IMG/VR virus record: IMGVR_UViG_3300042889_001955
Location: 1 to 27,390 of that record
Origin: a virus
DNA length: 27,390 nucleotides
Strand: one strand, 5' to 3'
The stretch's first letter is position 1. Each line of letters starts with the position of its first letter. The position numbers were made by a program, and so were the translations under genes. Under the pieces are notes generated by a model. The model saw nothing but the letters and a program-made list of their open reading frames with translations. It did no database searches and had not been told where the DNA came from. Shown one piece after another: positions 667 to 27,390 of this stretch.

Positions 667-2769
667 TTAAAACAAGATGACCGATCGCCGAGGTCGATAT
701 GCTCCAGCGTAAATCGTCTTATCAACAATGACCACATCTCCGGGCATCACATCAGCAACGATAGCGACGCTGGTCACAATGTTGTGACCAACAATGGACA
801 ATTCCGTAGATTCGACTACCACCAATTGATCCAACGACACTGACGTATCTTGACTCAACAGTTCTATTATCTGATACGATGGTGTCGCTATCGTTGATGA
901 TTGCCACGTGCTTGCGAATTGCACTAGGTTGAGATTACCAACTGGTGGCTTTGACTCAGAACCGGACGACACCAGCGGCGCGTGACCGCTGATAACAATA
1001 CCACCGGTATCGATTCTTTGATTGTGGCTTACCACAATCGACGGAATCTTACCGGAAATTGTTAGATTGCCCGTCTCAGTCAGCGCGTTAACTTCGATTG
1101 TCTGACTAGGAACCAAACCAACAATTTCAATCGAAGATACTCCAGCCACAGCGTTGGCAAACGATCGAGCTGTAGGAGCAAATCCGGTGATAGTGAATGT
1201 GCTGAAGTTAGGAGTTACCACGGCGGATGCAGTTGGTAAGACTGTACGCCCAATCAATGTCAAAGTGGCAGGTAGCAAGATTGGGAAGTTGTCAACTCTT
1301 GCGGAGACACTCAAGCCATTAATCACCAGAGCACTAGATGACAGACTGGACTGCTCATTTTTAGATGCTTGAGTCGCCGGGATTCTTCCCGTTAGATTCA
1401 AACCACCGGCGGTAGATGTTGCGGATACGCTGTTAGCACCAATTGGTGGTAGACCTGCTATTACCGAGGTACCCTGACCAATAAGAGAAGTATCTCCCTT
1501 TGTTACAAGTATTTGATTTCCAACAATAGTATGAGTTGAAAGCAAAGAAAGGGAAAGGCTCGATGATGAAGCCTCAGGAATTCTACCTAGAATTGCAAGG
1601 GTCGAGAAAGATGCGTTGGCATTGCTGGAAGACGCAGTGGTCGGAATCTTACCATCAATAGTAAGATTGGATGAATCAATCTGACTAACAAGTGTTGCAG
1701 TTACCGATGGTACCAGGCCGGTTATATTGATATTGCCGGCTAAGAGGGTGGCGAAGCCATTGCTGTTGGCAGACGAAAGTGGCGGATATCCGGAGAGTGC
1801 CACCGTTCCTAGAGTGGAAGTTACACTAGAACTCGAAGTGCTAGATTGATTCAACCCAGTTACCGCGAGAGTGCCCACTGCCAAGTTGGCTTCGTTCAGC
1901 GTGTCGCTGGTGGCGACAACCGAATATGTAGAGAGAACTAGGCTAGAGGCGGCAATAGAAGAATTGCAGGAGGACGACGGCGACGCGACCAATCCTGTAA
2001 TTTGTAACGCACTAGCCAGTGTAATGGCTGTGACATTGGCTGTGAATGCAGTGGTGACATTGAAGCCAGTAACAGTGATACCACTCGTCGCCAGCGTGGA
2101 TTGAACTGATGACGTGGCCGTCGGTGTCTGGGAAACTATGGTGAGGTTGGATACACCTGCCGCCGCCGCATATGATAGCTGCTGTATTCCGTTAGAGGAG
2201 AGTGAGATGCCACCGAACGTGACACTCGTTGCTGCCTGAACTGCGACATCGGATTCCGATGTCACTAGCATCGGGCTCAAATTCTGAGAGAGGCTAGCCG
2301 CTATTTGGATTACGCCACCACCACTTGAGATCAGAGATCCTAGTGTTGGTGTAGATGTACCGAGAACCAATACGCCAACCGAGGATGACGAAGTCATCGC
2401 AGCCAGCGAGTTGGTTAGAGTAACTGATGAGACTATTCCGCCGTTCGATATCAGCGATATAGCACTTAACGAACTACTGAGTGACAATCCTGATATGATG
2501 TCCACGTCGCCAGACGTGGACATCATATCAAGGTTAGCGGAAAGACTAGCAATGATCGGTGAGGCTATAGCCTCAACCGTACCACTTGCCACTGCTGTCA
2601 GACCATCCAGAGTCTGAATCAGAGAACCGCTGAGCTCTACCTTGACATCGGAAGCGGCTGTGATCGAACCAAGTGTGGCGACCAGGGTGGCGGTGGGCGA
2701 CTCAAGTAGGAGTATGCTGCCATCTTCAAGAAGAAGGCTGGAGCCGTCCTCCTGGAGAATATATGACAT
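667..2769 (-). CDS. Repetitive tail-fibre/adhesin-type structural protein
   Basis: This 700-aa protein starts at ATG 2769 with a strong AAGGAG site. It opens with a short repeat of the kind seen at the start of phage structural proteins (YILQEDGSSLLLEDGSILLLE). The rest is rich in Ser, Thr, Ala, Val, Leu and Ile, with almost no Cys, Trp or Tyr. From about residue 240 on, short units with the pattern hydrophobic-x-hydrophobic-x-G-x-x-P recur (for example LTIDGKIP, LAILGRIP, LNLTGRIP, FTITGFAP, IEIVGLVP, LTISGKIP, IVISGHAP). This pattern suggests a beta-strand ladder in an elongated fibre. It is the last gene of the virion block and lies 9 bp after the 954-aa structural gene. The exact role (fibre, adhesin, head decoration) cannot be told from sequence. 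A perfect 18-bp hairpin lies within its 5' part. Confidence 0.75.
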   Translation of the reverse strand: MSYILQEDGSSLLLEDGSILLLESPTATLVATLGSITAASDVKVELSGSLIQTLDGLTAVASGTVEAIASPIIASLSANLDMMSTSGDVDIISGLSLSSSLSAISLISNGGIVSSVTLTNSLAAMTSSSSVGVLVLGTSTPTLGSLISSGGGVIQIAASLSQNLSPMLVTSESDVAVQAATSVTFGGISLSSNGIQQLSYAAAAGVSNLTIVSQTPTATSSVQSTLATSGITVTGFNVTTAFTANVTAITLASALQITGLVASPSSSCNSSIAASSLVLSTYSVVATSDTLNEANLAVGTLAVTGLNQSSTSSSSVTSTLGTVALSGYPPLSSANSNGFATLLAGNINITGLVPSVTATLVSQIDSSNLTIDGKIPTTASSSNANASFSTLAILGRIPEASSSSLSLSLLSTHTIVGNQILVTKGDTSLIGQGTSVIAGLPPIGANSVSATSTAGGLNLTGRIPATQASKNEQSSLSSSALVINGLSVSARVDNFPILLPATLTLIGRTVLPTASAVVTPNFSTFTITGFAPTARSFANAVAGVSSIEIVGLVPSQTIEVNALTETGNLTISGKIPSIVVSHNQRIDTGGIVISGHAPLVSSGSESKPPVGNLNLVQFASTWQSSTIATPSYQIIELLSQDTSVSLDQLVVVESTELSIVGHNIVTSVAIVADVMPGDVVIVDKTIYAGAYRPRRSVILF
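2491..2530. repeat. Perfect 18-bp inverted repeat with 4-nt loop inside the fibre gene
   Basis: The left arm is 2491-2508, the loop GCCA is 2509-2512 and the right arm is 2513-2530. All 18 pairs are Watson-Crick. It encodes the LDMMSTSGDVDIIS stretch near residues 80-93 of the 700-aa fibre protein. No U-run follows in either direction. Confidence 0.9.
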
Positions 2770-2778
2770 TCAGTCTCC

Positions 2779-5643
2779 TTAGAATAGAAGTGTTCTAGAA
2801 AGGATCGTCCCGGTATTTTGCAACGAGTAGAGGTATTTTACCTCTCCCGTTGGATTAGAGATGATCTCCATAAAGTTACCAATGTGAACGGCGTTTTGTG
2901 GTATAGACGTTGTCGCGATGCCATCAATTTTATGATAGTTGATATTGTAGCCAAAAATACGGACAGGACCAGAAGCTACGGATCGACTCATTAGTAATGT
3001 ATCGACGCCATCATAGGCGTATGATGATCCAGTGTTAAACAATTCACCCTGTGGTGTAATGAAGTCTGCGTGATCCCATCGCCCAGTAGTGATATCGTAA
3101 CGATCCATAGTGTTCGATCCGCCGCCTCTTGGCGAGAAAATGAATCTGGCTTTTTTAGCTGCGTCTGTGCCATTCCAAGCCCAGACAAGGTCAATACCAG
3201 CAGCTCTTGGAGGAATAGCAAGGATTGCATACGGCGTATGTACGTCTGGAGTACCAACCGTGGCTGTCAGTGCGGTTGAGGTACCGCTGGCGATTGCCAC
3301 CTCAGTTCCAGCCAAGGCAGCACCAGTCACGCGAATTCGCTTACCAGCCCACTGGTTGACGGTCCAGTTTTTGGTGGTCGTTTCAGTAATTGTGTTAAGA
3401 GTCGCCGCAGTGTTTAAGCCCCACGTATCCGCAATTTCATATCTGGTCATCCCGTCTGGTGTAAAGCTTTGGGTCGAGAATGTCAGTGTAGTAGCAGTGT
3501 TGGATATGATTGAGATTCTACCAGACCCATAACCAGTCCCGGCTTCAACTTTGAACAGGTATCCAGCCCATTGGTTGGGAACCCAGTTTTTAGCTGAGTC
3601 CACAAGCGTCGTTGTAGATCCGCCAGTTGCTCTGCCGTAGCCAACCTGATCTGCTTGTTTTCTCTGGTTGTCGGATCCAAAAACTTTGGAATCGTAGACC
3701 ACATATTTCGATGTTCCGTTACCGGCTGCTGTAATGGCTAGACCAACAGTAATGGTGGTGGCGGTATTCGAAACAATCCATCGAATCTGTGAAGTTGGAG
3801 CCGTACCCGCGACCATAACGTGAATGAGGCGACCGGCGTGTTCGTTCACTATCCAGCTCTTTGTAGAATCTACAATTACGGTGACACTTTGTGACGCTGT
3901 CGCTACCATGGTAGCTGCGGCCGTCGTAGCTACACAGAATGTAGTTGGAATAGTGGTGACTGGAACACCAATGATGGTGTAAGCTGCGTTCCAGGTGGCA
4001 TCGGTGCAACCAGCAAAGGTTATAGAGTTGCCTCTCTTGAACCAGTGCGCCGATGTCGTAGTGATTAGTGCGGTTGGACCAACTGTCGTGATAGAAAGAG
4101 TAACGGTACCAGTACCAGTACCACCCGTGACCGTAGTGGTGTTGCCGGTAGCGTAACCAGTTGTCGTTCCGGAATGTGCTAGTTCGACTGACGTGATAAC
4201 ACCCGTTGGAGTGATACCTGTGACGTGAGCCTGAGCACCAGCACCGGTACCGTTGGCAAATGTAAGAACATCACCGATGGTGAATCCTGAAGTACCGCCC
4301 GCAACAGGAGTTGCGTTTAGCACTTGAACACCAAGCGCAATTCTGGTACCAGTCGTTACACCAACCGGATTCCATCCATTCATAGAAGCACTGATGTTGG
4401 TAGTTACGCCATCATCAAACGATTGTCCCTGCATCCAGAAATCATTTTCTGGAGAATAGGCGAACATGGTGGCAAGCGCACCACCCGCAACAAAGATCTT
4501 ATCCGAATCTGGCCAAATTTCATAGGTCGACCCGGTCGTTGGAACCACGTCCCAGTTTTTAGCTACCGTGAACGCTGTTGCTGTATGCCCAATGATTCTT
4601 CTATTTTGGCCAATACCAGTTCCACCGGTAATGAAAATTCTATGGTTGCTGTAGCGATCAGGAGTCAGCGCCAACCCAGCATCCGCAAGGGTTCTACTTG
4701 TGCCAGACACTACACCAACGTTTGTGACGAGCGCTGTGCCAAGTTTACCGGTCCGCTCTATGGCAAAATCAGTACCATATGCTGCCAGGAGCAAACTCTG
4801 TGGAACAGTCTTGGTTTGCCAAGAATCATGAATGACATCGTAGTATTGTAGCGTCATAAAGGGGGTCGCTGCCGCCGAGGACAACAGATAGATTCCTCCA
4901 GAAGCAGCGGTAAAGAATGAAGAGTTGTCCGGCGTAGTAGTCCAAGCGTCTACGCTATAAACGGATGCTGAAATCTCATACATCGACTGCGCACCTGCAG
5001 TGGTGGCAGGTAATACGTTAGGCGCAGCGGCAACGAAAATTTGGTTATTCCACTGGTCGTGTGGTTGTAGGTTGGCGTCTGCAACATAGAGAGTGGTGGC
5101 GTCATTATACAGAATCTTTTTGTACAGCGTGTTAGCTGTACCGAATGTGATACCAACCAGGTATCCAGCCCATTGATTCATACGCCATTTTTTCGTGGTA
5201 TCGGCCAGGGTGGATGTGGTAGTACCAGTAATAACACCTGACTCGTAAACGATGTCGCTTACGTGGGTCAGTGTTCTAGTTTGACCGACACCTGTTCCCT
5301 GCAGGATTTCCATGGCCTCACCATTGAGAGTTGATCTCAAAGCTGGGATGGTAACCGTTGTGGATGTGGCATCAATTATTCTTCCGTGGAAGCCGCGACG
5401 CTTTGTGTATCGCATCTTTGCGGCAGTAACACCAGCCGTGTTTGGCGATGTGAGTTGCTGCCACGTGTCAGCCTGTGTATCATAACGATAGAAGGCCGCA
5501 GCGTTGAGGTAATAGATGTATCGGTTGCTTGCATCGTCCGACGATGTCATTGCTGATACTGCCGACGCAGCTACTGGCGCTTGGCTCATCAATTCCCAAA
5601 ACGGAACGTCGATAACCTTTTTGTTGTTGTTGGTTATAGGCAT
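2779..5643 (-). CDS. Large virion structural protein with W-x-NQWAG repeats
   Basis: This 954-aa protein resembles large structural proteins of T4-like marine phages. A repeat of about 100 residues is visible. Each unit has a Leu-Ala/Val-Asp 'SxxTLxD' lead, then K-x-W-x-x-N-Q/E-W/H-A-G, then a T-x-Y/I-x-I-x-x-N-x-T-T stretch. Clear copies encode KKWRMNQWAGYLVGI (about 5150-5190), KSWIVNEHAGRLIHV (about 3818-3862), KNWVPNQWAGYLFKV (about 3553-3592) and KNWTVNQWAGKRIRV (about 3331-3371). Between them lies a Gly/Thr-rich segment (about 4080-4300) with GxGxGAxAxVTGI and GTGTGTVTLSI. The N-terminus and C-terminus contain Tyr/Trp-rich strands that look like Kelch or beta-propeller blades (YRYDTQADTWQQL; YDITTGRWDHADF). 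I infer a tail or baseplate-attached fibre protein. Confidence 0.75.
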   Translation of the reverse strand: MPITNNNKKVIDVPFWELMSQAPVAASAVSAMTSSDDASNRYIYYLNAAAFYRYDTQADTWQQLTSPNTAGVTAAKMRYTKRRGFHGRIIDATSTTVTIPALRSTLNGEAMEILQGTGVGQTRTLTHVSDIVYESGVITGTTTSTLADTTKKWRMNQWAGYLVGITFGTANTLYKKILYNDATTLYVADANLQPHDQWNNQIFVAAAPNVLPATTAGAQSMYEISASVYSVDAWTTTPDNSSFFTAASGGIYLLSSAAATPFMTLQYYDVIHDSWQTKTVPQSLLLAAYGTDFAIERTGKLGTALVTNVGVVSGTSRTLADAGLALTPDRYSNHRIFITGGTGIGQNRRIIGHTATAFTVAKNWDVVPTTGSTYEIWPDSDKIFVAGGALATMFAYSPENDFWMQGQSFDDGVTTNISASMNGWNPVGVTTGTRIALGVQVLNATPVAGGTSGFTIGDVLTFANGTGAGAQAHVTGITPTGVITSVELAHSGTTTGYATGNTTTVTGGTGTGTVTLSITTVGPTALITTTSAHWFKRGNSITFAGCTDATWNAAYTIIGVPVTTIPTTFCVATTAAATMVATASQSVTVIVDSTKSWIVNEHAGRLIHVMVAGTAPTSQIRWIVSNTATTITVGLAITAAGNGTSKYVVYDSKVFGSDNQRKQADQVGYGRATGGSTTTLVDSAKNWVPNQWAGYLFKVEAGTGYGSGRISIISNTATTLTFSTQSFTPDGMTRYEIADTWGLNTAATLNTITETTTKNWTVNQWAGKRIRVTGAALAGTEVAIASGTSTALTATVGTPDVHTPYAILAIPPRAAGIDLVWAWNGTDAAKKARFIFSPRGGGSNTMDRYDITTGRWDHADFITPQGELFNTGSSYAYDGVDTLLMSRSVASGPVRIFGYNINYHKIDGIATTSIPQNAVHIGNFMEIISNPTGEVKYLYSLQNTGTILSRTLLF

Positions 5644-5656
5644 GTGTGTACTTTCT

Positions 5657-6016
5657 CTACGATACTACTATGTTGGCGCGCGGACCATTGGCATAACCGG
5701 TTCTTGATAGCGCTCGCATCATATCAAATGCGGGAATACCACCCATCGCGGTTTGGTTGCTCACCGTACCCACCGTAGTCACACCAGTGACCGTGGTGAC
5801 CGTGGTCACCGCAGTGACAGTTGATACGGTTGTTACCGTACCAAGGGTCGCCACGTTGTTGACATCAATGTTCAGGCGGTTTGAACCACCGCCCGTAATG
5901 ATACCTAGTGGTTTAAGAAGCTGGAAGATTCTTCGCAACAGCGATAGACTGCCTTCTTCGGCAGGCGATACGATGTTGTTATCAGCATCCTTTAATCGTG
6001 TTGATTCTAAGTACAT
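5657..6016 (-). CDS. Small structural protein with VTTV repeats
   Basis: The 119-aa protein starts at ATG 6016 behind GAGGAAAG. Residues 1-40 predict a helical head (YLESTRLKDADNNIVSPAEEGSLSLLRRIFQLLKPLG). It is followed by about ten copies of a V-T/S-T/A-V unit at residues 55-85, then a Gly/Ala-rich tail ending NGPRANIVVS. Such V-T repeat proteins occur in the structural blocks of T4-like phages and are probably small fibre or adaptor subunits. It lies between the 954-aa and 126-aa structural genes in the same orientation. I cannot assign a specific role. Confidence 0.65.
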   Translation of the reverse strand: MYLESTRLKDADNNIVSPAEEGSLSLLRRIFQLLKPLGIITGGGSNRLNIDVNNVATLGTVTTVSTVTAVTTVTTVTGVTTVGTVSNQTAMGGIPAFDMMRALSRTGYANGPRANIVVS

Positions 6017-6025
6017 CGTCTTTCC

Positions 6026-6406
6026 TCAAAAAATCAGCCATTTGCCATTGGCAAATGTCAATCCAAACGAAGTATTGACATTGGATATGATAACATCGGG
6101 ATAACCATCAATAGTTTCAGCGCCATCGGGCAGTATTGTGATTGTCCCACTATTTATGTTCTTTATCTGATATTGTTTTCCGGCCGTCCCTGCTGGGAGT
6201 TGAAGTGTGAATGTCCCATCTGTGATAATCACACTGTCGTCTGCTAGAAGAGTATAGTTGGATGTGACATTGACCACCTTCGTGACTGTGAGCAAATCAG
6301 AAAGCAAGATCTTCTTTGTGGTGCCACTCTGAACCAGAACGCCAAGTTCGGTCCCTATGAGAGGAGCACTGGCCGATGGAAGTTCACTGATTTTTGTATC
6401 AACCAT
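6026..6406 (-). CDS. Tail-fibre-like head-domain protein
   Basis: The 126-aa protein starts at ATG 6406 with an AGGA site. The N-terminus MVDTKISELPSA is typical of phage tail-fibre proteins (x-x-x-K-I-S-x-L-P). It is followed by a beta-rich domain with YTLLADDSVIITDGTFTLQLP and YQIKNINSGTITILPDG, a pattern found in phage fibre and tail-spike modules. The protein ends FANGKWLIF. Its size suggests a stand-alone fibre-tip or chaperone-like domain, not a full fibre. It is flanked by structural genes. Confidence 0.65.
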   Translation of the reverse strand: MVDTKISELPSASAPLIGTELGVLVQSGTTKKILLSDLLTVTKVVNVTSNYTLLADDSVIITDGTFTLQLPAGTAGKQYQIKNINSGTITILPDGAETIDGYPDVIISNVNTSFGLTFANGKWLIF

Positions 6407-6416
6407 CGAGTCCTAC

Positions 6417-6821
6417 TTATGCGTTTGCGTCGGTCAGGGTGAAGGTATTGACGGTAACAGTCTGCGAGGTGGCAATTGAAGTGTTATCCAATTCCATATC
6501 ACCACCACCAGAAGTAGCTGTTACGGTACCCTGCATGTGACATGTGGTACCTGCGTTATCAACAATTCGGAAATGTGCCGCAGTGCCAGTGGCTGCCGCA
6601 GTACCAGTCCACGTGCCCAATTTGGCTTTCGAGCCAGCCGATGCTGCAGACATGTAATCAGAAGGTAGGGTAATTTCACACAACAAGGTTCCAGAGGCGG
6701 CCGTTCCACAGTTGGCAGGTTGGGCACCTGTACGAATTTGCAGCTTTGCGGTTGCACCAGCGGCAACTTCAAAGGCATCCAGGCGACCGTTACGAACGGC
6801 GACAGAAAGTTGAATGGCCAT
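6417..6821 (-). CDS. Small beta-rich structural protein (unknown role)
   Basis: The 134-aa protein starts at ATG 6821 behind AAGGAT. It begins MAIQLSVAVRNGRLDAFEVA and holds Gly/Ala/Thr-rich predicted beta strands, with two cysteines in the middle (ANCGTAASGTLLCE) and a third near CHMQG. This composition fits a small capsid-decoration or tail protein. It forms a pair with the next upstream gene of similar length and composition. No enzyme motif is present. Confidence 0.6.
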   Translation of the reverse strand: MAIQLSVAVRNGRLDAFEVAAGATAKLQIRTGAQPANCGTAASGTLLCEITLPSDYMSAASAGSKAKLGTWTGTAAATGTAAHFRIVDNAGTTCHMQGTVTATSGGGDMELDNTSIATSQTVTVNTFTLTDANA

Positions 6822-6830
6822 GAATTATCC

Positions 6831-7277
6831 TTAAGATAGTGTGAAGAGACCGGAAGCGTTGATTGTGATGCTCAGCGTACCATTACTTGGACTCAAGCCA
6901 GAACCCACACCAGTTTCCAGATCCACAAACCCAAGAAGATCCTTATTAGAAGCAGTGTCGTTATAGATCACAGCATACTTGGCCGAGAATGTAGAAGACG
7001 TCCAACTCTGATCATCACAGTCGACTGTGATTGTACCAGTGCTTCGCGTCACCGTCATAGCAAGGGTTTTGCCGGCAGTGGTGTAGCCGTTGCCATTGGC
7101 AACTTGCGCTGTTAGGTCGGCGTATCGAGCATCCGTCGATGTACCAGCAAAGGTAGCATCAATAGACTGCGAGCTTGTCACCAGAGCCATTTTGTAAACG
7201 TGAGTATCCAAGTCGTGGATACCGTTTAGAAGCTTGAGCTTGGCGATATTGAAAACTGTGAAAGGTCCAGCAGCCAT
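6831..7277 (-). CDS. Small beta-rich structural protein (unknown role), late promoter upstream
   Basis: The 148-aa protein starts at ATG 7277 with a strong AAGGAGAT site. The start (FTVFNIAKLKLLNGIHDLDTHVYKMALVTSS) and the following Thr/Ser/Gly-rich strands resemble small virion proteins in the structural modules of marine phages. A T4-type late promoter (AATAAATA) lies 32 bp upstream, so this gene probably begins a late transcript covering the downstream structural genes. Function is inferred from context only. Confidence 0.62.
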   Translation of the reverse strand: MAAGPFTVFNIAKLKLLNGIHDLDTHVYKMALVTSSQSIDATFAGTSTDARYADLTAQVANGNGYTTAGKTLAMTVTRSTGTITVDCDDQSWTSSTFSAKYAVIYNDTASNKDLLGFVDLETGVGSGLSPSNGTLSITINASGLFTLS

Positions 7278-7308
7278 CGAGATCTCCTTAGAAGGCGTTT
7301 ATGTCTTC

Positions 7309-7316
7309 TATTTATT
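7309..7316 (-). promoter_or_regulatory. Late promoter (AATAAATA)
   Basis: On the minus strand the sequence reads GAATAAATAGAAG, close to the T4 late promoter TATAAATA. It sits 32 bp upstream of the 148-aa structural gene and overlaps the stop of the gene before it. Confidence 0.6.
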
Positions 7317-8290
7317 CAGGAGATCACCCAGCTGAATACAAAGCTAATATGGCTCAATTCTGGGTCAGTGTTCTGCGGTGCTACCAATAATAGTATGTCA
7401 TTTGGTGCCACACTCGAGCCATGATAGGTCAGTGTCGCCACAGAACTACCGGCCATAAATCTCACATCAATGAAGGACGTATTATTTTTGAGCAGGAAAA
7501 AGGTGCAATCCGATTGGGTGGCAATCTCAGCATTTGCCTTGGTCTTGGATGGATCAATCACAATGTTGTCGAGCACTATGATCCGCATGATTTTTTCCAA
7601 AGGACCTGGGCGGTCACCCACGAACGCACTCATTCTCATCGGAGCCGCAGGACCGGTTGGCCCCAAAGGACCCACGGGACCAGTAGGTCCCACAAGCGGA
7701 ACAAATGGACCCCATCCAGGAGCAATCTTAGGTCCATAGAATCTATGGTTCAGAGTGTCCACATAATAGTCACCAACATCACCAACTGGAAGAGTGGGAG
7801 GACCTTCGCCATTCAAAATAGTTCGGGCCACCGCGCCCGTGGGCCGCATGGAGACCAGTATTTTAGTTGGCGAGAGGGCGGCGCCGATTTGTCTCTGCCA
7901 TGCTCCGGATGGTGGAACCTGCGTGAGCTCGCCATTGATACCACAATAAAGAGCCCCAGGGCTCCAATTCCAAGCTGGGTCCTCTATCTCACCCACTAGG
8001 CGGATAGAAAGGGAGTTGCCAATACTGGCATTCTCAACAGTAACGCCTAGGATTAGATCAGCATCAGTCGCCAGGCCAACATCAGGATAACCAGCGTGGT
8101 CCTCACCAATTTGCTTGACGACTCGATAGCGTTGAAGAGAGGTATTGGCAGCTCTGATAATGCTAAGATTGGTAATCGGAAAGAATTCACGCGCGATAGC
8201 GAAATCAACCGCGGTCTCGTCCATGAGAGATCCGGGAGTTACCGTTTCGACACCTGAGTCACTTATAGTGAGGATTAGGTCTTCACTCAT
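7316..8290 (-). CDS. Collagen-like tail/fibre protein
   Basis: The 324-aa protein starts at ATG 8290, whose first base overlaps the stop of the preceding gene (TAATG). The N-terminal half (about 1-160) is a beta-rich domain. Then comes a segment common in phage fibres: GDVGDYYVDTLNHRFYGPK, then GWGPFVPLVGPTGPVGP. The collagen-like Gly-x-y run continues GPLGPTGPAAP near residues 205-225. A C-terminal domain of about 100 residues follows (IMRIIVLDNIVIDPSKTK through SFVFSWVIS), and it may trimerise. The collagen motif implies a trimeric stalk. I infer a tail-fibre or head-fibre protein. Confidence 0.72.
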   Translation of the reverse strand: MSEDLILTISDSGVETVTPGSLMDETAVDFAIAREFFPITNLSIIRAANTSLQRYRVVKQIGEDHAGYPDVGLATDADLILGVTVENASIGNSLSIRLVGEIEDPAWNWSPGALYCGINGELTQVPPSGAWQRQIGAALSPTKILVSMRPTGAVARTILNGEGPPTLPVGDVGDYYVDTLNHRFYGPKIAPGWGPFVPLVGPTGPVGPLGPTGPAAPMRMSAFVGDRPGPLEKIMRIIVLDNIVIDPSKTKANAEIATQSDCTFFLLKNNTSFIDVRFMAGSSVATLTYHGSSVAPNDILLLVAPQNTDPELSHISFVFSWVIS

Positions 8291-9167: not shown

Positions 9168-9530
9168 GTGAACAGTCAACTTGAGAAATTTCCATTCCTG
9201 ACCCTGGGTAAATACCTAGATCAAGAGTACCTTGGAATCATTGGCAATTCTGATAATCAGATTGTCTCAATGTACCTGTTTGATCTCTTGCCTGAAGACT
9301 CCTACAAGAGTCTCTTTCTCGCTCTGGGAGATGAATGGTGGTGGGAGACTAACCGTCAGCTACCAATCAACGTGGCACTCAAAGATCGCTGGGTGGTGTT
9401 TCGACCATTTATGCGAAGTTTTATCGCCAAGGACTTCGAGATCATAGCCGGACCCTGTGTGAGTCTAGACAGTGTGATGATCAAGCGCATCAAGCGCAGA
9501 CAGATCCAATTGATCCGCAAGGATATCTAA
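9168..9530 (+). CDS. Conserved phage protein of unknown function, plus strand
   Basis: This 120-aa protein starts at GTG 9168 behind a weak AGGA site; the next in-frame ATG is 33 codons in and would remove much of the protein. It is likely real: it has its own late promoter, a soluble-protein composition, and a distinctive LGDEWWWETNRQLPIN segment. It also has a strongly basic C-terminus (MIKRIKRRQIQLIRKD). There is no known catalytic motif. The basic tail could contact nucleic acid. It is one of only two plus-strand genes and its stop overlaps the end of the converging minus-strand gene by four bases. Confidence 0.72.
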   Translation: MNSQLEKFPFLTLGKYLDQEYLGIIGNSDNQIVSMYLFDLLPEDSYKSLFLALGDEWWWETNRQLPINVALKDRWVVFRPFMRSFIAKDFEIIAGPCVSLDSVMIKRIKRRQIQLIRKDI

Positions 9531-10009
9531 GCCCAAGTCAGCTTGAAGAGCATCGCGTCATCGGGATTCACAAAACCCCAGGCGAGGTAGATCATTCCAT
9601 CAGTCAAGCCTTGTATTGGATAGAATGTCCATTCCCTAACATTCTGCTCGTGTAGCCAATCCAGCTGGGCTTCAAAGTTAGTTGACTTCAGGCCATACCT
9701 GGCGGGTTCAAATTCTATTGGGGCCCATACAACTTCAAGTGACTTGATCTGACTAGCATCAACTGGATCTATGTATCCTGCGAAGCGGCCACCCTCCCGG
9801 ATACCTTTACAATGGTAGTGTTTATGATCCTCTCCTTTGACAGCATCGAAGAGTAAATATTCGCCGGCGGTGATATCTGGGGCCATGAGACCCACGACTT
9901 CCAACCAACCATAATTCATATCACAGTCGCCTAGACCCAAGCCCAGGCAACCATTGTTCAATACGAGCAGGTAGGCTTCGTTATAGTTGACTGAACAATG
10001 GCGTGTCAT
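9527..10009 (-). CDS. Unknown protein with shared C-terminal DDAMLFKL motif
   Basis: The 160-aa protein starts at ATG 10009, overlapping the end of the PolIII-alpha-like gene by 29 bp, so the two are probably co-translated. I do not recognise the family. It is rich in Gly, Asp and aromatic residues, with several cysteines and histidines (DHKHYHCKG) near residue 65. It ends in WGFVNPDDAMLFKLTWA, a C-terminal motif shared with the two genes upstream at 10583-11109 and more loosely with two genes near 17 kb. The motif may be a docking tail or a common fold end. Confidence 0.65.
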   Translation of the reverse strand: MTRHCSVNYNEAYLLVLNNGCLGLGLGDCDMNYGWLEVVGLMAPDITAGEYLLFDAVKGEDHKHYHCKGIREGGRFAGYIDPVDASQIKSLEVVWAPIEFEPARYGLKSTNFEAQLDWLHEQNVREWTFYPIQGLTDGMIYLAWGFVNPDDAMLFKLTWA

Positions 10010-10583
10010 CGAGAGCCTGCTCTACGAAAAGGTTCATTTGTATTATGACGACATATGAATATGAGAGCGCGTGAGCCTTCTTGAATCCATATTTGTCGTC
10101 ATCCACATTGGTCCAAATCTCAGCTTCAACCTCGGCCCACGAGCGGCCCACAAGGTGGCGCTTTGCTGGTCTGATCAATGCCAACACCATGGCCATCTGT
10201 TCGATGGTCCTGGGTTTCATCGACTCCACGACATCGAAGTGACCGTTGATGTGGAAGAGCTCATTGACCACACTCTCAATCTCGAGAATATCCCATTCGG
10301 GTTCTCGTTCCATGAGTTCAAGCAGATGTTCCTCGTCTCTGACCTTGTTGTAGATGTGTAGGTTAAGGAAATCGATTTTGAAATAACCACGTGATTCAGC
10401 TTCCTTATAGGGAAGGCTGGCCCAGCCCGTCATCGCATCAGTGGGAATATCTTGAAAGTAGACACCAACATTGTGCTTCTTGAATGCACCATTCTCCATG
10501 CGACTTGCGGGTATGTGGAGGAGGTCCTCGAGTGCGAGATCACGATCCGCGAAGTCGATATCAATGTCGGGTATGCGAGTCAT
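9981..10583 (-). CDS. Miniature DNA polymerase III alpha-like catalytic core
   Basis: This 200-aa protein starts at ATG 10583 and aligns by eye with the C-family polymerase core. Residues 5-11 read PDIDIDF (bacterial PolIII alpha has PDFDVDF with two catalytic Asp). Residues 67-73 read YFKIDFLNL (bacterial KFDFLGL holds the third catalytic Asp). Residues 110-140 (FHINGHFDVVESMKP...MAMVLALIRPAKR) match the VFQLES...LVALFRPGPL region. Residues 167-183 (FKKAHALSYSYVV) match FNKSHAAAYA. The PHP, OB, tau-binding and most finger segments are missing; the family norm is about 1,100 residues. Polymerase activity is therefore uncertain. It could be a degenerate polymerase, a nucleotide-binding regulator or a host-replisome competitor. 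It lies within the C-terminal-motif cluster. Confidence 0.75.
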   Translation of the reverse strand: MTRIPDIDIDFADRDLALEDLLHIPASRMENGAFKKHNVGVYFQDIPTDAMTGWASLPYKEAESRGYFKIDFLNLHIYNKVRDEEHLLELMEREPEWDILEIESVVNELFHINGHFDVVESMKPRTIEQMAMVLALIRPAKRHLVGRSWAEVEAEIWTNVDDDKYGFKKAHALSYSYVVIIQMNLFVEQALDDTPLFSQL

Positions 10584-10864
10584 TATCCGAATACTAGCTT
10601 GAACAACATAGCGTCGTCACTATCCGGGAATGCGATTTCCACGAATCCCAGGTACATGGTGGGCAGGTGACCGAGGCCGCGCTCATCTAACCATTCTAGA
10701 ACCTCATCTCCCCTGGGATAGTCCTGTGGGTAAATCATGAACATATTGGGATTAAGGGCTTCTTGGAAGAAGGGTTGGGAAACAATGGCGCCGCCGGCGG
10801 GATTATAACTATCTTGAAGACTGTTACGAGCATACAGGTTGGGGTCTGCTCCACCACGAGGCAT
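10583..10864 (-). CDS. Small unknown protein with C-terminal DDAMLFKL motif
   Basis: The 93-aa protein starts at ATG 10864, overlapping the previous stop (TGATG), and its own stop overlaps the start of the PolIII-alpha-like gene. The N-terminal half is Asn/Pro/Tyr-rich and probably disordered (GGADPNLYARNSLQDSYNPA). The C-terminal half has DEVLEWLDERGLGHLPTMYL and ends VEIAFPDSDDAMLFKLVFG. It belongs to the same C-terminal-motif set as its neighbours. No function is known to me. Confidence 0.65.
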   Translation of the reverse strand: MPRGGADPNLYARNSLQDSYNPAGGAIVSQPFFQEALNPNMFMIYPQDYPRGDEVLEWLDERGLGHLPTMYLGFVEIAFPDSDDAMLFKLVFG

Positions 10865-11109
10865 CAGATGAAGCTCAACTTGAAAAGCATAGCGGTTTCA
10901 GCATCAGGCATTTTGACGATGTAGAGTACTCCGTCGGCTCCAACATCATCGTATTCGATGCCACGGTCTTTCATCCATTGCATCTGGAGACGGGCCTTTG
11001 AATTGAGACCAAAGTGAGCTAAACAGTTGAAAACCAAAGGATCTTGTTTGGTTTGCCGGAAACAGGCAATCCGTTCAAGAACGCGGTTGAGTTCCAAGTA
11101 GTCCACCAT
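10864..11109 (-). CDS. Small unknown protein with C-terminal AMLFKL motif
   Basis: The 81-aa protein starts at ATG 11109, 35 bp inside the end of the 167-aa gene, which suggests translational coupling. It has a helical first half (YLELNRVLERIACFRQTKQD), a middle with LQMQWMKDRGIEYDDVGADG, and ends YIVKMPDAETAMLFKLSFI. The pattern 'W-x-x-D-R/E-x-G...' followed by the C-terminal motif is also found in the 93-aa neighbour (EWLDERGLG...DDAMLFKL), so the two look like paralogues. Confidence 0.65.
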   Translation of the reverse strand: MVDYLELNRVLERIACFRQTKQDPLVFNCLAHFGLNSKARLQMQWMKDRGIEYDDVGADGVLYIVKMPDAETAMLFKLSFI

Positions 11110-13992: not shown

Positions 13993-14493
13993 TTAAACTA
14001 CCTGAGTGATATCCAATACGTCAGGTAACTTATTGGTATCCTTAACAAAATAAGCGCACTTGGGTTTTCCACCCAATTCAAGTGGGATGGTCAGAATATG
14101 ACCATACTTGAGCTTGGGGAAATGCCATTTCACATCAGGGAAGACGTTGATAATTTCGATGTCTAGGAACTCCGGCATGTATCCCGAGAGTGGATTCATT
14201 GTGAATGCTTGGAACTCTCGGTCGTTGATTTGCTTCAACGATATCAACTCCAATTCACCAGAGTTCTTATCTCCAATCACGATACTCCAACTCATTGGCA
14301 TCTGCATCTGCATGTTGCCAATGCGCAGATCCACAGCTGGTTCATTGAAGCTTTCCAACCAGAGAAGTGGAATGAACATATAGTCTACATTGTTGTGGTC
14401 ACTGTAATCCAGGACACAATACCGCATGTCTTCTACTGAATCGGGTATCGCGTTCATGGAAAAAGTATCGTTGTTCTCCGTCAGGATTCTCAT
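13993..14493 (-). CDS. Unknown phage protein downstream of UvsW
   Basis: This 166-aa protein starts at ATG 14493 and overlaps the end of uvsW by four bases (ATGA), so it is translationally coupled to it. The sequence is beta-rich with many Met residues (VDLRIGNMQMQMPMSWSIVIG) and includes KWHFPKLKYGHILTIPLELG near the end. No motif is recognised. The coupling suggests a role linked to recombination or late DNA processing, which is inference only. Confidence 0.62.
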   Translation of the reverse strand: MRILTENNDTFSMNAIPDSVEDMRYCVLDYSDHNNVDYMFIPLLWLESFNEPAVDLRIGNMQMQMPMSWSIVIGDKNSGELELISLKQINDREFQAFTMNPLSGYMPEFLDIEIINVFPDVKWHFPKLKYGHILTIPLELGGKPKCAYFVKDTNKLPDVLDITQVV

Positions 14494-15977
14494 TTTAGTG
14501 CTTTCTGGTAATCCACCTTAATAATCTGGTGGGGGTACTTGGCTTCCTTGTAGTCGCCTTTGCGTTTCTTCATGTGTTTGGCAGAGAACTTACAGTTGCT
14601 CGCCATGTCGTAGACGTTGACAAAGTCTTTGTCCTGAGCTTTCCGAATGCCGCGACCGATACTCTGAATAACCCTAGTGTGGGATTTGCCTGGCTCGATG
14701 AGAATAAGGTTGAAGATCCGTGGAATGTTGATACCCACGGCTGCCACTCCATACGTGGCGATCAAGACCAAGTTGTCACTACCCGTGTATTCATCGTAAC
14801 TGGATTTACGATCCTTTTGCTTGGTGGCGCCATAGACAAACTTGCTGTCTGGAATACGAGCTTCAAGCTCTTCGCCCGTAGTCACACGGTTGATGAGGAT
14901 CAGTGTGTTGCCGTCTTTGGCGCGTTCCATCGCAAATTCACTAATCCAGTCGAGACGGTGAGGATCCGTGACTAGGTAGTTGTATTCTTCATGGAAGGAA
15001 TCGAACTCAACCGTGTCGAGCATCTGCATGATCGAGATATCTAGGTTAGCTAGTACATCCATGGCCATGAGCTCGTGAGCTGCTAGGCGATTTGTAACCG
15101 GACCCAGAGAGGCCAAGATGGAAGTGAACTCGTGTTCTTCTTTGGGAACGGTACCGGTGAGTCCCCAACGAATAGGAACGTTCGCGAACGGACCACAGAG
15201 TAGGTTCTTCAGTACGTCTGCTTTGGCCATGTGAACTTCGTCCACCATGACGCAGATCACGTCTTTGCTGAACGTGTCGATATCCAGCTTGTCTGCAGTC
15301 ACACCCTTCTTGGATGTCTTGTCCAAGATATGTAGACTCTGCCATGTGCAGATGGTGTGTTTGTGGCCGGGTTCCTTACGGTCACCATAGTAGACACCCA
15401 CATCGAGTCCAAGGTTCTTGTAATCAGCCTCAGTTTGATCCACGAGGCTCTTGTTTGGAACAATCACAATCGTTCTTCCATGTGCCTCACAGAGGTGACT
15501 CAGAGAAGCTGTGAGTAGAGTCTTACCCGCACCTGTAGCAATCTCTTGGATGCACTGTGGGTTCTCGAGGAAGGTACGAACCACGTTGACCTGATAGTCA
15601 CGTAGCTTGATGTCCTGTCCCGCTGCTGGATGACCCGTTGGCCACACTGGATTGGGAGCGTAGTCAACAATGTAGTCCTCATCTACCTCCGGGAAATCGA
15701 AGGCAACATCTGGACGATGATCCTCAAGTTCAATTTCATACCCATTCTCGTAGATGATGGGTATGACTTTGTCCAAGAGGTTCACAAAAGTGTTTCCATT
15801 GAGCGCGAAGTATCGCACGCAACCATCCCACCGTCCCAGCTTGAAAGCTGGCATGTGCCGAGCAGCGTGGATGAAGAACTTCAGCGCCTCGCTACATTCA
15901 CGTCGTGTCTTTGGATCCAGATCTTTGAAACTTGCGTTTACCTGATCATGGATTACTAGAGTACATTTCTTTGACAT
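14490..15977 (-). CDS. uvsW: UvsW-like DNA/RNA helicase
   Basis: This 495-aa superfamily 2 helicase has the motif order of T4 UvsW (587 aa there). It starts at ATG 15977 behind AAGGG. Motifs: LRDYQVNVV (about 125-133), ATGAGKT Walker A (147-153), VDEVHMAK DEVH box (245-252), WGLTGTVPK motif III (271-279), LVLIATYGVAAVGINIP (about 405-420) and QSIGRGIRKAQ motif VI. The first 100 residues form the UvsW N-terminal arm that binds DNA (HMPAFKLGRWDGCVRYF). In T4, UvsW unwinds R-loops and branched DNA and shifts replication from origin- to recombination-driven starts. A late promoter sits 74 bp upstream, consistent with T4, where uvsW is a late gene. Confidence 0.92.
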   Translation of the reverse strand: MSKKCTLVIHDQVNASFKDLDPKTRRECSEALKFFIHAARHMPAFKLGRWDGCVRYFALNGNTFVNLLDKVIPIIYENGYEIELEDHRPDVAFDFPEVDEDYIVDYAPNPVWPTGHPAAGQDIKLRDYQVNVVRTFLENPQCIQEIATGAGKTLLTASLSHLCEAHGRTIVIVPNKSLVDQTEADYKNLGLDVGVYYGDRKEPGHKHTICTWQSLHILDKTSKKGVTADKLDIDTFSKDVICVMVDEVHMAKADVLKNLLCGPFANVPIRWGLTGTVPKEEHEFTSILASLGPVTNRLAAHELMAMDVLANLDISIMQMLDTVEFDSFHEEYNYLVTDPHRLDWISEFAMERAKDGNTLILINRVTTGEELEARIPDSKFVYGATKQKDRKSSYDEYTGSDNLVLIATYGVAAVGINIPRIFNLILIEPGKSHTRVIQSIGRGIRKAQDKDFVNVYDMASNCKFSAKHMKKRKGDYKEAKYPHQIIKVDYQKALK

Positions 15978-16871: not shown

Positions 16872-17541
16872 CGGTTCCCCACAGTGACTCCTGAAGATTC
16901 ATCATCCTGGCCATGAAGGCGTCGTCTTTGGTCTCGACGCAGATCTCATTATCAACGAGTGTGATCTCTGATTTACCGAGTCGTGAATTGCTCACACCAG
17001 CAAGAAGCTTTGCGACATCATCATCGAAGTCAAACCCATATCTGGAGATAATCTCAATCACACCGGCGTAGTTGGCTACACTGACAGGGACCACCCAGAG
17101 TTTGTTCTTGGGTTCATAAGAGGTCTTGTGCGTTCCAAAACAATCACTCGTCTTGAAAGCCTTGAGTGCTTCCTTAACCTCGGGATTAAATTTGAAGCGG
17201 AATACCAGGTTGGCCCCACCACACCATCGAACTTCTCTCTTTACCGTTGAACTCAAGTTGGGAGGAAGGCGAGTTGTATGCTCGCTGGTGACTTGCTCAA
17301 TATGAGTGTATGACATACCCGCAAGTTCAAGATGAACTTGGTATCGGTCTATCAACTTGAGGATTACTCCAACTTGTCCTGTAGACAATGGCTTGGCAGA
17401 GTCTCGAGTATGCCAAGCCACCTCGCTGACGAATCGACGGTCCCAAGAGTTTGAGATACCATAGGGTTGACCCGTGCTATCTCGGGGTGGGTCCCAATTG
17501 ATTTCGTCTAGTCGTTCGATGCAGTCTTCAAGGGTTGCCAT
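16864..17541 (-). CDS. HARP-like domain protein
   Basis: The 225-aa protein starts at ATG 17541. Residues 38-70 (WHTRDSAKPLSTGQVGVILKLIDRY) resemble a short helical module that precedes phage SNF2 helicases. Residues 103-185 resemble the HARP domain of SMARCAL1-type annealing helicases: VFRFKFNPEVKEALKAF, then NKLWVVPVSVANYAGVIEII, then RYGFDFDDDVAKLL. That domain binds DNA forks. The end, NEICVETKDDAFMARMM, loosely matches the C-terminal motif of the small-protein family. With the next gene it looks like a two-gene version of a SMARCAL1-like enzyme. The evidence is motif-level. Confidence 0.5.
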   Translation of the reverse strand: MATLEDCIERLDEINWDPPRDSTGQPYGISNSWDRRFVSEVAWHTRDSAKPLSTGQVGVILKLIDRYQVHLELAGMSYTHIEQVTSEHTTRLPPNLSSTVKREVRWCGGANLVFRFKFNPEVKEALKAFKTSDCFGTHKTSYEPKNKLWVVPVSVANYAGVIEIISRYGFDFDDDVAKLLAGVSNSRLGKSEITLVDNEICVETKDDAFMARMMNLQESLWGTDV

Positions 17542-17788
17542 GTTTCCGACGTCGTAATGCTGGCCAGGTCATCCTGGATAGCATGGCGTCTTCAGCAAGG
17601 TCAAAACTAAACCACATCTGGATGCGAACATCTTTGGTGTCACTATCCACCAATGGTGTGGTGAAACTACACATCCACCAATGACCCTTGAGATTGTCCA
17701 ACATCCAATTCACAGTTGGTTCGATGGTGATTGGTAGTAGATCTTCGTTAGGGGACGACATGAGATCGTAGAATGACATCACATCCAT
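17528..17788 (-). CDS. Small protein with C-terminal motif; true start probably further upstream
   Basis: From ATG 17788 the product is 86 aa, overlapping the HARP-like gene by 14 bp. No ribosome site precedes this ATG, and the frame stays open upstream to 17935 with protein-like sequence (see the extension feature). The protein is Trp- and Asp-rich (VNWMLDNLKGHWWMCSF) and ends FDLAEDAMLSRMTWPALRRR, related to the C-terminal motif of the 9.5-11.1 kb genes, with a basic tail added. Function unknown. Confidence 0.6.
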   Translation of the reverse strand: MDVMSFYDLMSSPNEDLLPITIEPTVNWMLDNLKGHWWMCSFTTPLVDSDTKDVRIQMWFSFDLAEDAMLSRMTWPALRRRKHGNP

Positions 17789-19910: not shown

Positions 19911-21005
19911 TTACTCCGCAGGTTCAGCAGCTTCCTTGGCGGCCAAGGCCACCATCTCAGCCACCCGGGCACTCTCTTGATTTTCCATATGTTGATGGAA
20001 TTCAGACATAACCAGGTTTAGCAGCTCGTCACTGATCTGCTTTCGGAAGTACTTATGTTCCGTGCCGTCAAGCGCGGTGTACTTCAACTTGTTACCATCC
20101 TTGACGAAGAGGTTCTTCGCCTCGAACAGATCCAAGAGACCCGAGTATGGATCCAGACCAGTTTCGTATGGAATCTTCAGAGTAACTGTCTCGAAGGGCT
20201 TGTTATAGCGAGTCTTCATGACCTTAATCTGAGAACGGATGCCACGTACTTCCGTGACCTTGTTGCCGTCCTCGTCTTCCTTCAGCTTCAGCTTGCGCAT
20301 GGCCACCACGATGGACGAGGCATAAACGAAACCCTGACCACCGGTGATCTTGTCGTCAGGATCAAACATATCCTGTGATGCATAGCTGTGGTTGGTTACC
20401 ACGAGCCCAATGTCCCATTCACCAAACATATTCACACAGTTGCGAACCAAGGAGTTCAACGCCTTTGGCTTGCGACCCATGTCACCCTTCATCTCACCGG
20501 CTTCAAACTGGTTCACGTCTGTTGGCGTGAGCAGCATACCCAGAGAGTCGATGACGAATAGAACCTTGGGTCGCTCATCGCGAGGTGTACTCGCGTAGGT
20601 TCCCTTGAAGCTCTTCATGAAGTCACTGATGATCTTGGCAACGTCGTCAATCATTGCCGCGTTGATCTTCAGAAGCTTGTCTTCGCTGACATCCACATCC
20701 AGTGCGGTTAGCCAATCCGAATCAAGTGCGTTCTCGCTGTCGATTAGAACTACGAAGTAGCCCTGTTTCTGTGCGTTAGCGATTACGTTGCCCGAAGCCA
20801 GGAAGCTTTTACCCGAACCACTCTGACCAGCCAGCATGGTGACCTTACCAAGGGGGATGCCCTTTTGGAAGTCGTTGCTGAGCGCGAAGTTCAGTGCATA
20901 CGAGCCAGTGCTCACCCAGTACTTGGGGTCGTTAAAGCCCACGGAGATTCCGTCAAGGCTCTTGTTGATGTCTTTTCTAAACTTGGAGATATCTACGGTC
21001 TTCAT
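19911..21005 (-). CDS. uvsX: UvsX RecA-like recombinase
   Basis: The start is ATG 21005 (MKTVDISKF) behind AGGAAGA; the frame is open a little further upstream but that part contains the gp32 3' hairpin. The product is 364 aa (T4 UvsX, 391 aa). Walker A is GQSGSGKS (60-67), with the downstream VVLIDSENALD (85-95), which includes the catalytic Glu. Walker B is KVLFVIDS (147-154). LVVTNHSY (201-208) is the signal just before loop 2, and KITGGQGF-type sequence follows. UvsX forms filaments on ssDNA and drives strand exchange in recombination-dependent replication. The gene lies between gp32 and uvsY. Confidence 0.93.
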   Translation of the reverse strand: MKTVDISKFRKDINKSLDGISVGFNDPKYWVSTGSYALNFALSNDFQKGIPLGKVTMLAGQSGSGKSFLASGNVIANAQKQGYFVVLIDSENALDSDWLTALDVDVSEDKLLKINAAMIDDVAKIISDFMKSFKGTYASTPRDERPKVLFVIDSLGMLLTPTDVNQFEAGEMKGDMGRKPKALNSLVRNCVNMFGEWDIGLVVTNHSYASQDMFDPDDKITGGQGFVYASSIVVAMRKLKLKEDEDGNKVTEVRGIRSQIKVMKTRYNKPFETVTLKIPYETGLDPYSGLLDLFEAKNLFVKDGNKLKYTALDGTEHKYFRKQISDELLNLVMSEFHQHMENQESARVAEMVALAAKEAAEPAE

Positions 21006-21023
21006 TGTTCTTCCTCTGAACTG

Positions 21024-21050
21024 TGAAGGGTGGCACGAAGCCACCCTTCA
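21024..21050 (-). terminator. Hairpin between gp32 and uvsX
   Basis: TGAAGGGTGGC (21024-21034) and GCCACCCTTCA (21040-21050) form an 11-bp stem around a 5-nt loop. On the minus strand the loop reads TTCGT. No T-run follows, so it more likely stabilises the 3' end of gp32 mRNA or attenuates read-through into uvsX than ends transcription fully. Confidence 0.6.
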
Positions 21051-21057
21051 TTAGGTC

Positions 21058-22068
21058 TTACTGACCGCCCTGTTGACGCTCTTTGATCCTGCGAAGGATC
21101 TCATTTACGTCGCTACCGCCACCAGCCGAGGCCGGGGCCGCGCTTTCAGTGGTTGGAGCAGGTGCGCTCATTGCCGCTAGGCGAGACATCGCATCCGATG
21201 CGGCAGTGCTGACACTGTCGTTGGAAGTAGATGCCGCAGGTGCGGACGAACCGGAGTTCGAGGAAGTGTTACCGCCGGCGTTGTAGCTGCCTTGTGGACG
21301 GTAGAATTGGCCCCAACGGTCGTTGTCGAAGGCTTCGTCGTTGACGCTGGCCTGGAACATTTCCTTGATAGCCTCTAGCTCTTCAGCTGTTGGCTTCTTG
21401 GGCAGGAAGGACTTGAGATCGTGCAGGCCACCGTTCTCGATAGCTGCGCTCTCCACAGGGTTTAGACTGCGGGTCTTCATGCTCCAGTTGGAAGTGGAGT
21501 AGTTGGCGAAACCGCCCTTCGTGGTCTTCTTCAGGTTGAAGTCACGACCCGAGATGTAATCGGTGGGCAGGTCTTCCATCTCAGGATCCATGAGGGAGCC
21601 CTTGATGATTTCAAAGATGCTGGGGTTGATGATGAAGCGACGTACAGGATTTTCCGGTACTTCCTTCTCTTCGAAACCGCTGTTGGTTACGAAGCCCTGG
21701 AAGATATAGCTCTTCTTCTTCCAGTACTTGCGGGCCAGAGCCTGCAAGCTGTCGTCCTTCCACCACGGACGAGTCTCTGCCAGAACTGGGCAGGTCTCGC
21801 CGTACATTTCCATGCAGGGAACCTGAACGATGACTTCACGGTCATGCTCGCCCTTGATGCCCTGGAAAGGCATCTTGATCACAAGACGTTCCACCCAGAA
21901 GAAGGTGTTGGTCGGATCTGCGTCTGGAAGGAAACGTAGTTGGGTTGTTCCACCCTCTGGAGTGTTCCAGAAGGGATATACCGCATTATCACCGCCTGTG
22001 CGTTGTCCGCCTTCGGCCTTAGTGTTTTGCGCCAGAAGCTTGGCGCGGATTTCGTCTAGAGTAGCCAT
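21058..22068 (-). CDS. 32: gp32-type single-stranded DNA-binding protein
   Basis: This 336-aa protein starts at ATG 22068. It shows the T4 gp32 plan (301 aa there). An N-terminal self-association region (1-22, DEIRAKLLAQNTKA) is followed by the DNA-binding core: TTQLRFLPDADPTNTFFWVE, H75-x9-C85-x7-C93, then RKYWKKKSYIFQGFV and PVRRFIINPSIFEIIKG. The zinc site seems reduced, because the fourth ligand (Cys two residues after C93 plus one) is replaced by Val-Leu. A Ser/Ala/Gly-rich linker (about 270-315) leads to a helical end NEILRRIKERQQGGQ, which is not the strongly acidic tail of T4. A perfect TATAAATA and a long A-rich leader precede it. Confidence 0.92.
   Translation of the reverse strand: MATLDEIRAKLLAQNTKAEGGQRTGGDNAVYPFWNTPEGGTTQLRFLPDADPTNTFFWVERLVIKMPFQGIKGEHDREVIVQVPCMEMYGETCPVLAETRPWWKDDSLQALARKYWKKKSYIFQGFVTNSGFEEKEVPENPVRRFIINPSIFEIIKGSLMDPEMEDLPTDYISGRDFNLKKTTKGGFANYSTSNWSMKTRSLNPVESAAIENGGLHDLKSFLPKKPTAEELEAIKEMFQASVNDEAFDNDRWGQFYRPQGSYNAGGNTSSNSGSSAPAASTSNDSVSTAASDAMSRLAAMSAPAPTTESAAPASAGGGSDVNEILRRIKERQQGGQ

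Positions 22069-25961: not shown

Positions 25962-27390
<1,429 letters not shown>

Follow-up and report, generated by a model that had tools for sequence, protein, structure and literature searches.

One half of a split polymerase III in a jumbo phage fragment

The window analysed here, the whole 27,390-nucleotide stretch of IMG/VR virus record IMGVR_UViG_3300042889_001955 (27 kb), is an incomplete genome and a piece of a RaK2/Atu_ph07-like jumbo phage. Its minus strand carries an open reading frame (ORF) of 200 amino acids (10583-9981), with an ATG start and without internal stop. Judged from sequence profiles and structure models, the product is the C-terminal half (C-half) of the minimal split DNA polymerase III alpha subunit (PolIII alpha) of RaK2/Atu_ph07-type ('group 2.2') jumbo phages. 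The concept of a split minimal PolIII alpha is already published: Iyer et al. 2021 (PMC7824862) described it from sequence in giant phages, the 'group 2.2' jumbo phages, and speculated that it preserves a simpler form from before the parts were fused. A 2022 survey noted PF07733 for 51.9% of a single cluster of marine jumbo phages. No laboratory or biochemical work on the split enzyme after 2021 was found in a literature search. The window protein fits the C-half described by Iyer et al. (metal-binding aspartates of PolIII and a template-binding finger, with no PHP, OB or tau parts); it does not differ in kind and represents a further C-terminal-half sequence, from an uncultured phage. The present analysis adds the exact split point, a corrected residue assignment, a structural check of both halves and counts of their co-occurrence.

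The C-half matched PHROG 11778 ('DNA polymerase') over its full length (E-value 4e-71), as well as 63 isolate phage records and at least 580 IMG/VR stretches, so the ORF lies far beyond chance. Among the matches listed, the nearest isolate relative was Sinorhizobium phage Phosso (58.6% identity). An earlier note on this DNA had given the exact position of the ORF, its start almost at PDIDIDF and five motifs in the order of bacterial PolIII alpha, all of which were recovered as palm and finger motifs (Table 1). Its estimate of about 60 residues between the first two motifs, against about 150 in bacteria, agrees with the 62 measured here (D8 to D71) and the 151 of E. coli (D403 to D555). The three catalytic aspartates that it recognised are indeed kept, but they were numbered D8, D10 and D71. 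The profile alignment below pairs D6 with D401 and D8 with D403, which places the first two assignments one aspartate too late; the triad is D6, D8 and D71 (D401, D403 and D555 of E. coli DnaE). These three residues were invariant in 73/73 relatives and also kept in the C-halves of RaK2 and GAP32, at about 40% identity. No conserved clamp-binding motif was seen at the C-terminus of the C-half, where tails vary among relatives. The C-half gene of one relative (L088, 10226-10228) contains an in-frame TAA just past its KIDLLN motif, beyond which the frame continues; this is possibly a sequencing error, decay or recoding.

Table 1. Position of the C-half, its motifs and neighbouring genes in the window (DnaE, E. 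coli numbering; invariance among 73 relatives; G023, a 462-kb contig)
Feature	Position	Strand	Evidence and remarks
C-half (Mg2+/template-binding) of the minimal split PolIII alpha, 200 amino acids	9981..10583	-	ORF, PHROG, profile, model
PDIDIDF, residues 5-11	10551..10571	-	D6=D401, D8=D403, D10=D405; D6, D8, D10 invariant 73/73
KIDFLNL, residues 69-75	10359..10379	-	K69=K553, D71=D555; both invariant 73/73
FHINGHF, residues 110-116, start of finger part	10236..10256	-	aligned to DnaE FQLESRG 609-615
LIRPAKR, residues 136-142	10158..10178	-	R138=R639; R138, P139, K141 invariant 73/73
FKKAHALSYS, residues 167-176	10056..10085	-	F167=F756, H171=H760, Y175=Y764; F167, K168, H171, Y175 invariant 73/73
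Neighbour ORF, PHROG 11637, context	9168..9530	+ (opposite to C-half)	74% identity to same-place counterpart in G023
UvsW-like helicase, replication/recombination context	14490..15977	-	73% identity to G023
UvsX-like recombinase, context	19911..21044	-	81-84% identity to G023
Single-strand DNA-binding protein, context	21058..22068	-	comparison with G023
Terminase large subunit, context	25962..27311	-	comparison with G023

Kinship of the C-half with PolIII alpha

Single-sequence comparisons did not reach the polymerase. Scanning the C-half against Pfam and NCBIfam gave PolIII matches below threshold only (DNA_pol3_finger, E-value 0.076), phmmer against PDB sequences returned chance matches only, and hhalign against a single DnaE sequence gave no match, a DnaE alignment being needed. 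When a profile of 79 C-half relatives was aligned to a profile of 11 DnaE-type polymerases (hidden Markov model to hidden Markov model), residues 1-198 of the C-half fell on E. coli DnaE 396-786 with a probability of 94.3, pairing D6, D8, D10, K69, D71, R138 and H171 with D401, D403, D405, K553, D555, R639 and H760. The AlphaFold2 model, built from a 46-sequence alignment, had a predicted local distance difference test (pLDDT) score of 87.5 and a predicted template modelling (pTM) score of 0.75. In a VIA search each of its 12 best PDB entries was a PolIII alpha or a PolC (Z from 9.5 down to 5.7; the next, unrelated, at 4.3), and its top 12 Foldseek matches were all PolIII alpha. The earlier note had named an unrelated predicted fold, or relatives lacking the three aspartates, as outcomes that would speak against it; the fold and the relatives both pointed the other way. 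By sequence profile and predicted fold, the C-half is thus a relative of PolIII alpha that comprises the second palm segment (the three catalytic aspartates and the equivalent of K553) and a reduced finger.

Much of the bacterial enzyme has no equivalent in the phage protein. Bacterial DnaE and PolC are single chains with PHP, palm, thumb and fingers, whereas the C-half shares with them the palm and finger motifs, their order and the predicted fold, keeping the equivalents of D401, D403, K553, D555, R639 and H760. The finger insert 664-739 (76 residues) and nearly all of DnaE 420-506 were skipped in the alignments of the phage halves, which also left out all of DnaE before about 280 and after 786. 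The thumb, which spans about 433-510 in E. coli, is therefore nearly all gone. The PHP, OB and tau parts are missing, as the earlier note had stated, and much of the finger is missing too.

The partner half and the break point

The remaining part of the palm is encoded by a separate gene in relatives. Truncated PolIII alpha-like proteins had been mentioned in the CBB paper (CBB_328, 172 amino acids) and in the Atu_ph07 paper (gp316), and both matched Pfam DNA_pol3_alpha (PF07733; E-values 2e-8 and 5e-9). The corresponding N-terminal half (N-half) of contig G023 matched PHROG 11127 ('DNA polymerase') over its full length (E-value 2e-51); the two phage halves are full-length members of PHROG 11778 and PHROG 11127, with no difference seen. 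N-half proteins measured about 175 amino acids in relatives. A profile of 47 environmental relatives aligned to E. coli DnaE 317-393 with a probability of 96.7, the GRGS nucleotide-binding motif (R362) was conserved, and EFLK or EFLR lay at or beside the C-terminal end of nearly all N-half proteins. The model of the G023 N-half (pLDDT 93.1) reached VIA Z scores as high as 11.3 in its matches to PolIII alpha and PolC.

Superposed on the same structures, the two models abutted. The last residue of the N-half model lay on E. coli 393, M. smegmatis (5lew) 413 and PolC (9qrn) 964, and the first residue of the C-half model on 397, 416 and 968, respectively. The halves thus adjoin within a single catalytic core that is divided at one position, and the C-half begins at PDIDIDF because it is part of a split polymerase whose break falls just past DnaE 393. 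Together they reach about one third of the length of DnaE and, unlike it, are spread over two genes and contain no thumb, PHP, finger insert, OB, clamp or tau parts. Since the C-half has no GRGS palm part, which is a separate gene in relatives, it represents one of the two parts of an enzyme, and the proposal of the earlier note that it might be a minimal polymerase by itself is not supported.

Two observations concern the N-half alone. Its residues 1-80 (for example L106, 10001-10240) were predicted with high confidence, and these roughly 80 residues had no PDB match. One N-half ORF (L109, 9593-10513) measured 307 amino acids from its first ATG instead of about 175 and may carry an N-terminal extension.

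Co-occurrence of the halves and of other polymerases

Isolate records with a C-half were listed individually for 60 of the 63 matching ones, and 59 of these were also listed with an N-half; the exception was PP728206, a 109-kb partial record. Every tested contig or genome above 200 kb that holds the C-half also held the N-half (Phosso, Atu_ph07 and contigs of 223-365 kb), and both were present in G023, the closest large relative of the window. Starting from the N-half, the C-half was found in 8 of 15 contigs. Six N-half contigs without it were retested and remained negative (6/6) even at E-values up to 10; UvsX was also absent from these six, which are therefore best read as fragments. The halves lay tens to hundreds of kb apart (at 115 and 149 kb in RaK2; at 58 and 241 kb in Atu_ph07). 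They were never found in one locus, and no fused gene occurred among 195 loci with either half.

A family-B polymerase was detected in 14/14 large relatives tested, and PHP and DnaE HHH (HHH_6) domains in 0/14. The earlier note had found a C-family protein unexpected in phages that encode a B-family enzyme; the two do coexist, as Iyer et al. 2021 (PMC7824862) had already reported. No family-B polymerase was seen in the 27-kb window, an incomplete genome. The C-half is followed by genes for a primase and a DnaB-type helicase in G023 and in isolates, and the N-half lies near a clamp-loader gene in CBB and Atu_ph07, so that both halves sit in replication gene clusters.

Possible function of the split enzyme

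From these sequence and model comparisons, the C-half is probably one half of an active two-subunit, thumbless accessory polymerase that works beside the family-B enzyme. The N-half and C-half would come together to restore a single PolIII active site, in which the N-half would position the triphosphate of the incoming deoxynucleoside triphosphate (dNTP), and the C-half would supply the metal ions and hold the template and the primer end. Primer extension, gap filling and repair are examples of tasks that such an enzyme could carry out beside the family-B replicase of the phage. Weak processivity would be predicted because the thumb, PHP, clamp-binding, OB and tau parts are absent. Several points weigh against this reading. 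Off-register alternatives in the hhalign comparison of the C-half scored 60% and 52%, its pairwise E-value carries no database calibration, and the Foldseek E-value was just 6e-3. The loss of nearly all of the thumb (E. coli 433-510) might preclude ordinary DNA synthesis, and the N-half is absent from the 27-kb window, as expected of such a fragment.

That the thumb is lost and the finger shortened by 76 residues (E. coli 664-739), in phages that already have a B-family polymerase, would also suit an assembly of the two halves into a PolIII-like DNA- or nucleotide-binding fold with another role, either as a non-replicative nucleotidyltransferase or as a regulatory or structural subunit of the replisome. 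We consider this unlikely, as neither half varies in its catalytic and dNTP-contact motifs, the equivalent of H760 in the finger included, which points to true polymerase chemistry. The earlier note put forward a stand-alone miniature polymerase, a nucleotide sensor or a decoy directed at the host clamp or tau. These would agree with a window that carries the C-half only and with the presence of the catalytic aspartates, but an N-half accompanies all but one of the listed isolate records and brings the palm part that the C-half lacks. A decoy, moreover, would not need invariant catalytic aspartates, and the C-half has none of the parts with which PolIII binds the clamp and tau. No support was found for a sensor or a decoy, and this group of explanations is very improbable. 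Decay of a captured bacterial dnaE, with this gene as the remnant, is scarcely credible: the gene is far smaller than dnaE and one relative has an in-frame TAA, but the complete (100%) conservation of catalytic residues in 73 divergent relatives already contradicts decay, and size, split point and replication neighbourhood are conserved in isolates from many hosts.

Returning to the accessory polymerase, an active enzyme formed by the two halves would show that a C-family palm can work without a thumb and that C- and B-family polymerases operate in one replisome. If active, the pair would be, to our knowledge, the smallest PolIII-type polymerase known. A dedicated task for such a working thumbless two-subunit PolIII, such as extending the primers of the neighbouring primase before the family-B enzyme takes over, or repair, is conceivable and can be offered tentatively only; the pair might then keep a simpler, pre-fusion form. 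The break point and the invariant residues make the two-subunit idea directly testable in cultured relatives (RaK2, GAP32, 121Q, Paride, Atu_ph07).

Gene surroundings

Gene order in the window was collinear with that of G023 for the terminase, the single-strand DNA-binding protein, UvsX, UvsW, the C-half (54% identity) and the plus-strand neighbour ORF. A block of about 7.5 kb on the minus strand (667-8290) had no counterpart in G023 and lay between genes that directly adjoin there; its genes were mostly unmatched and partly tail-fibre-like. The minus-strand ORF at 1-600, of which only the start is present because the window end cuts it, showed 59% identity to a 567-amino-acid protein of G023. 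The 200 amino acids present gave no match in a Pfam scan; they contain DSGGFQ, which we take to be reminiscent of tRNA-guanine transglycosylase/DpdA-type proteins.

Four small minus-strand ORFs (9527-10009, 10583-10864, 10864-11109 and 17528-17788) had a common C-terminal tail resembling DAMLFKL(T/V/S)(W/F). Those that were searched had no family match, and they possibly form a duplicated small-protein family. The small ORF adjoining the C-half in G023 ended in DALRFKLSF.
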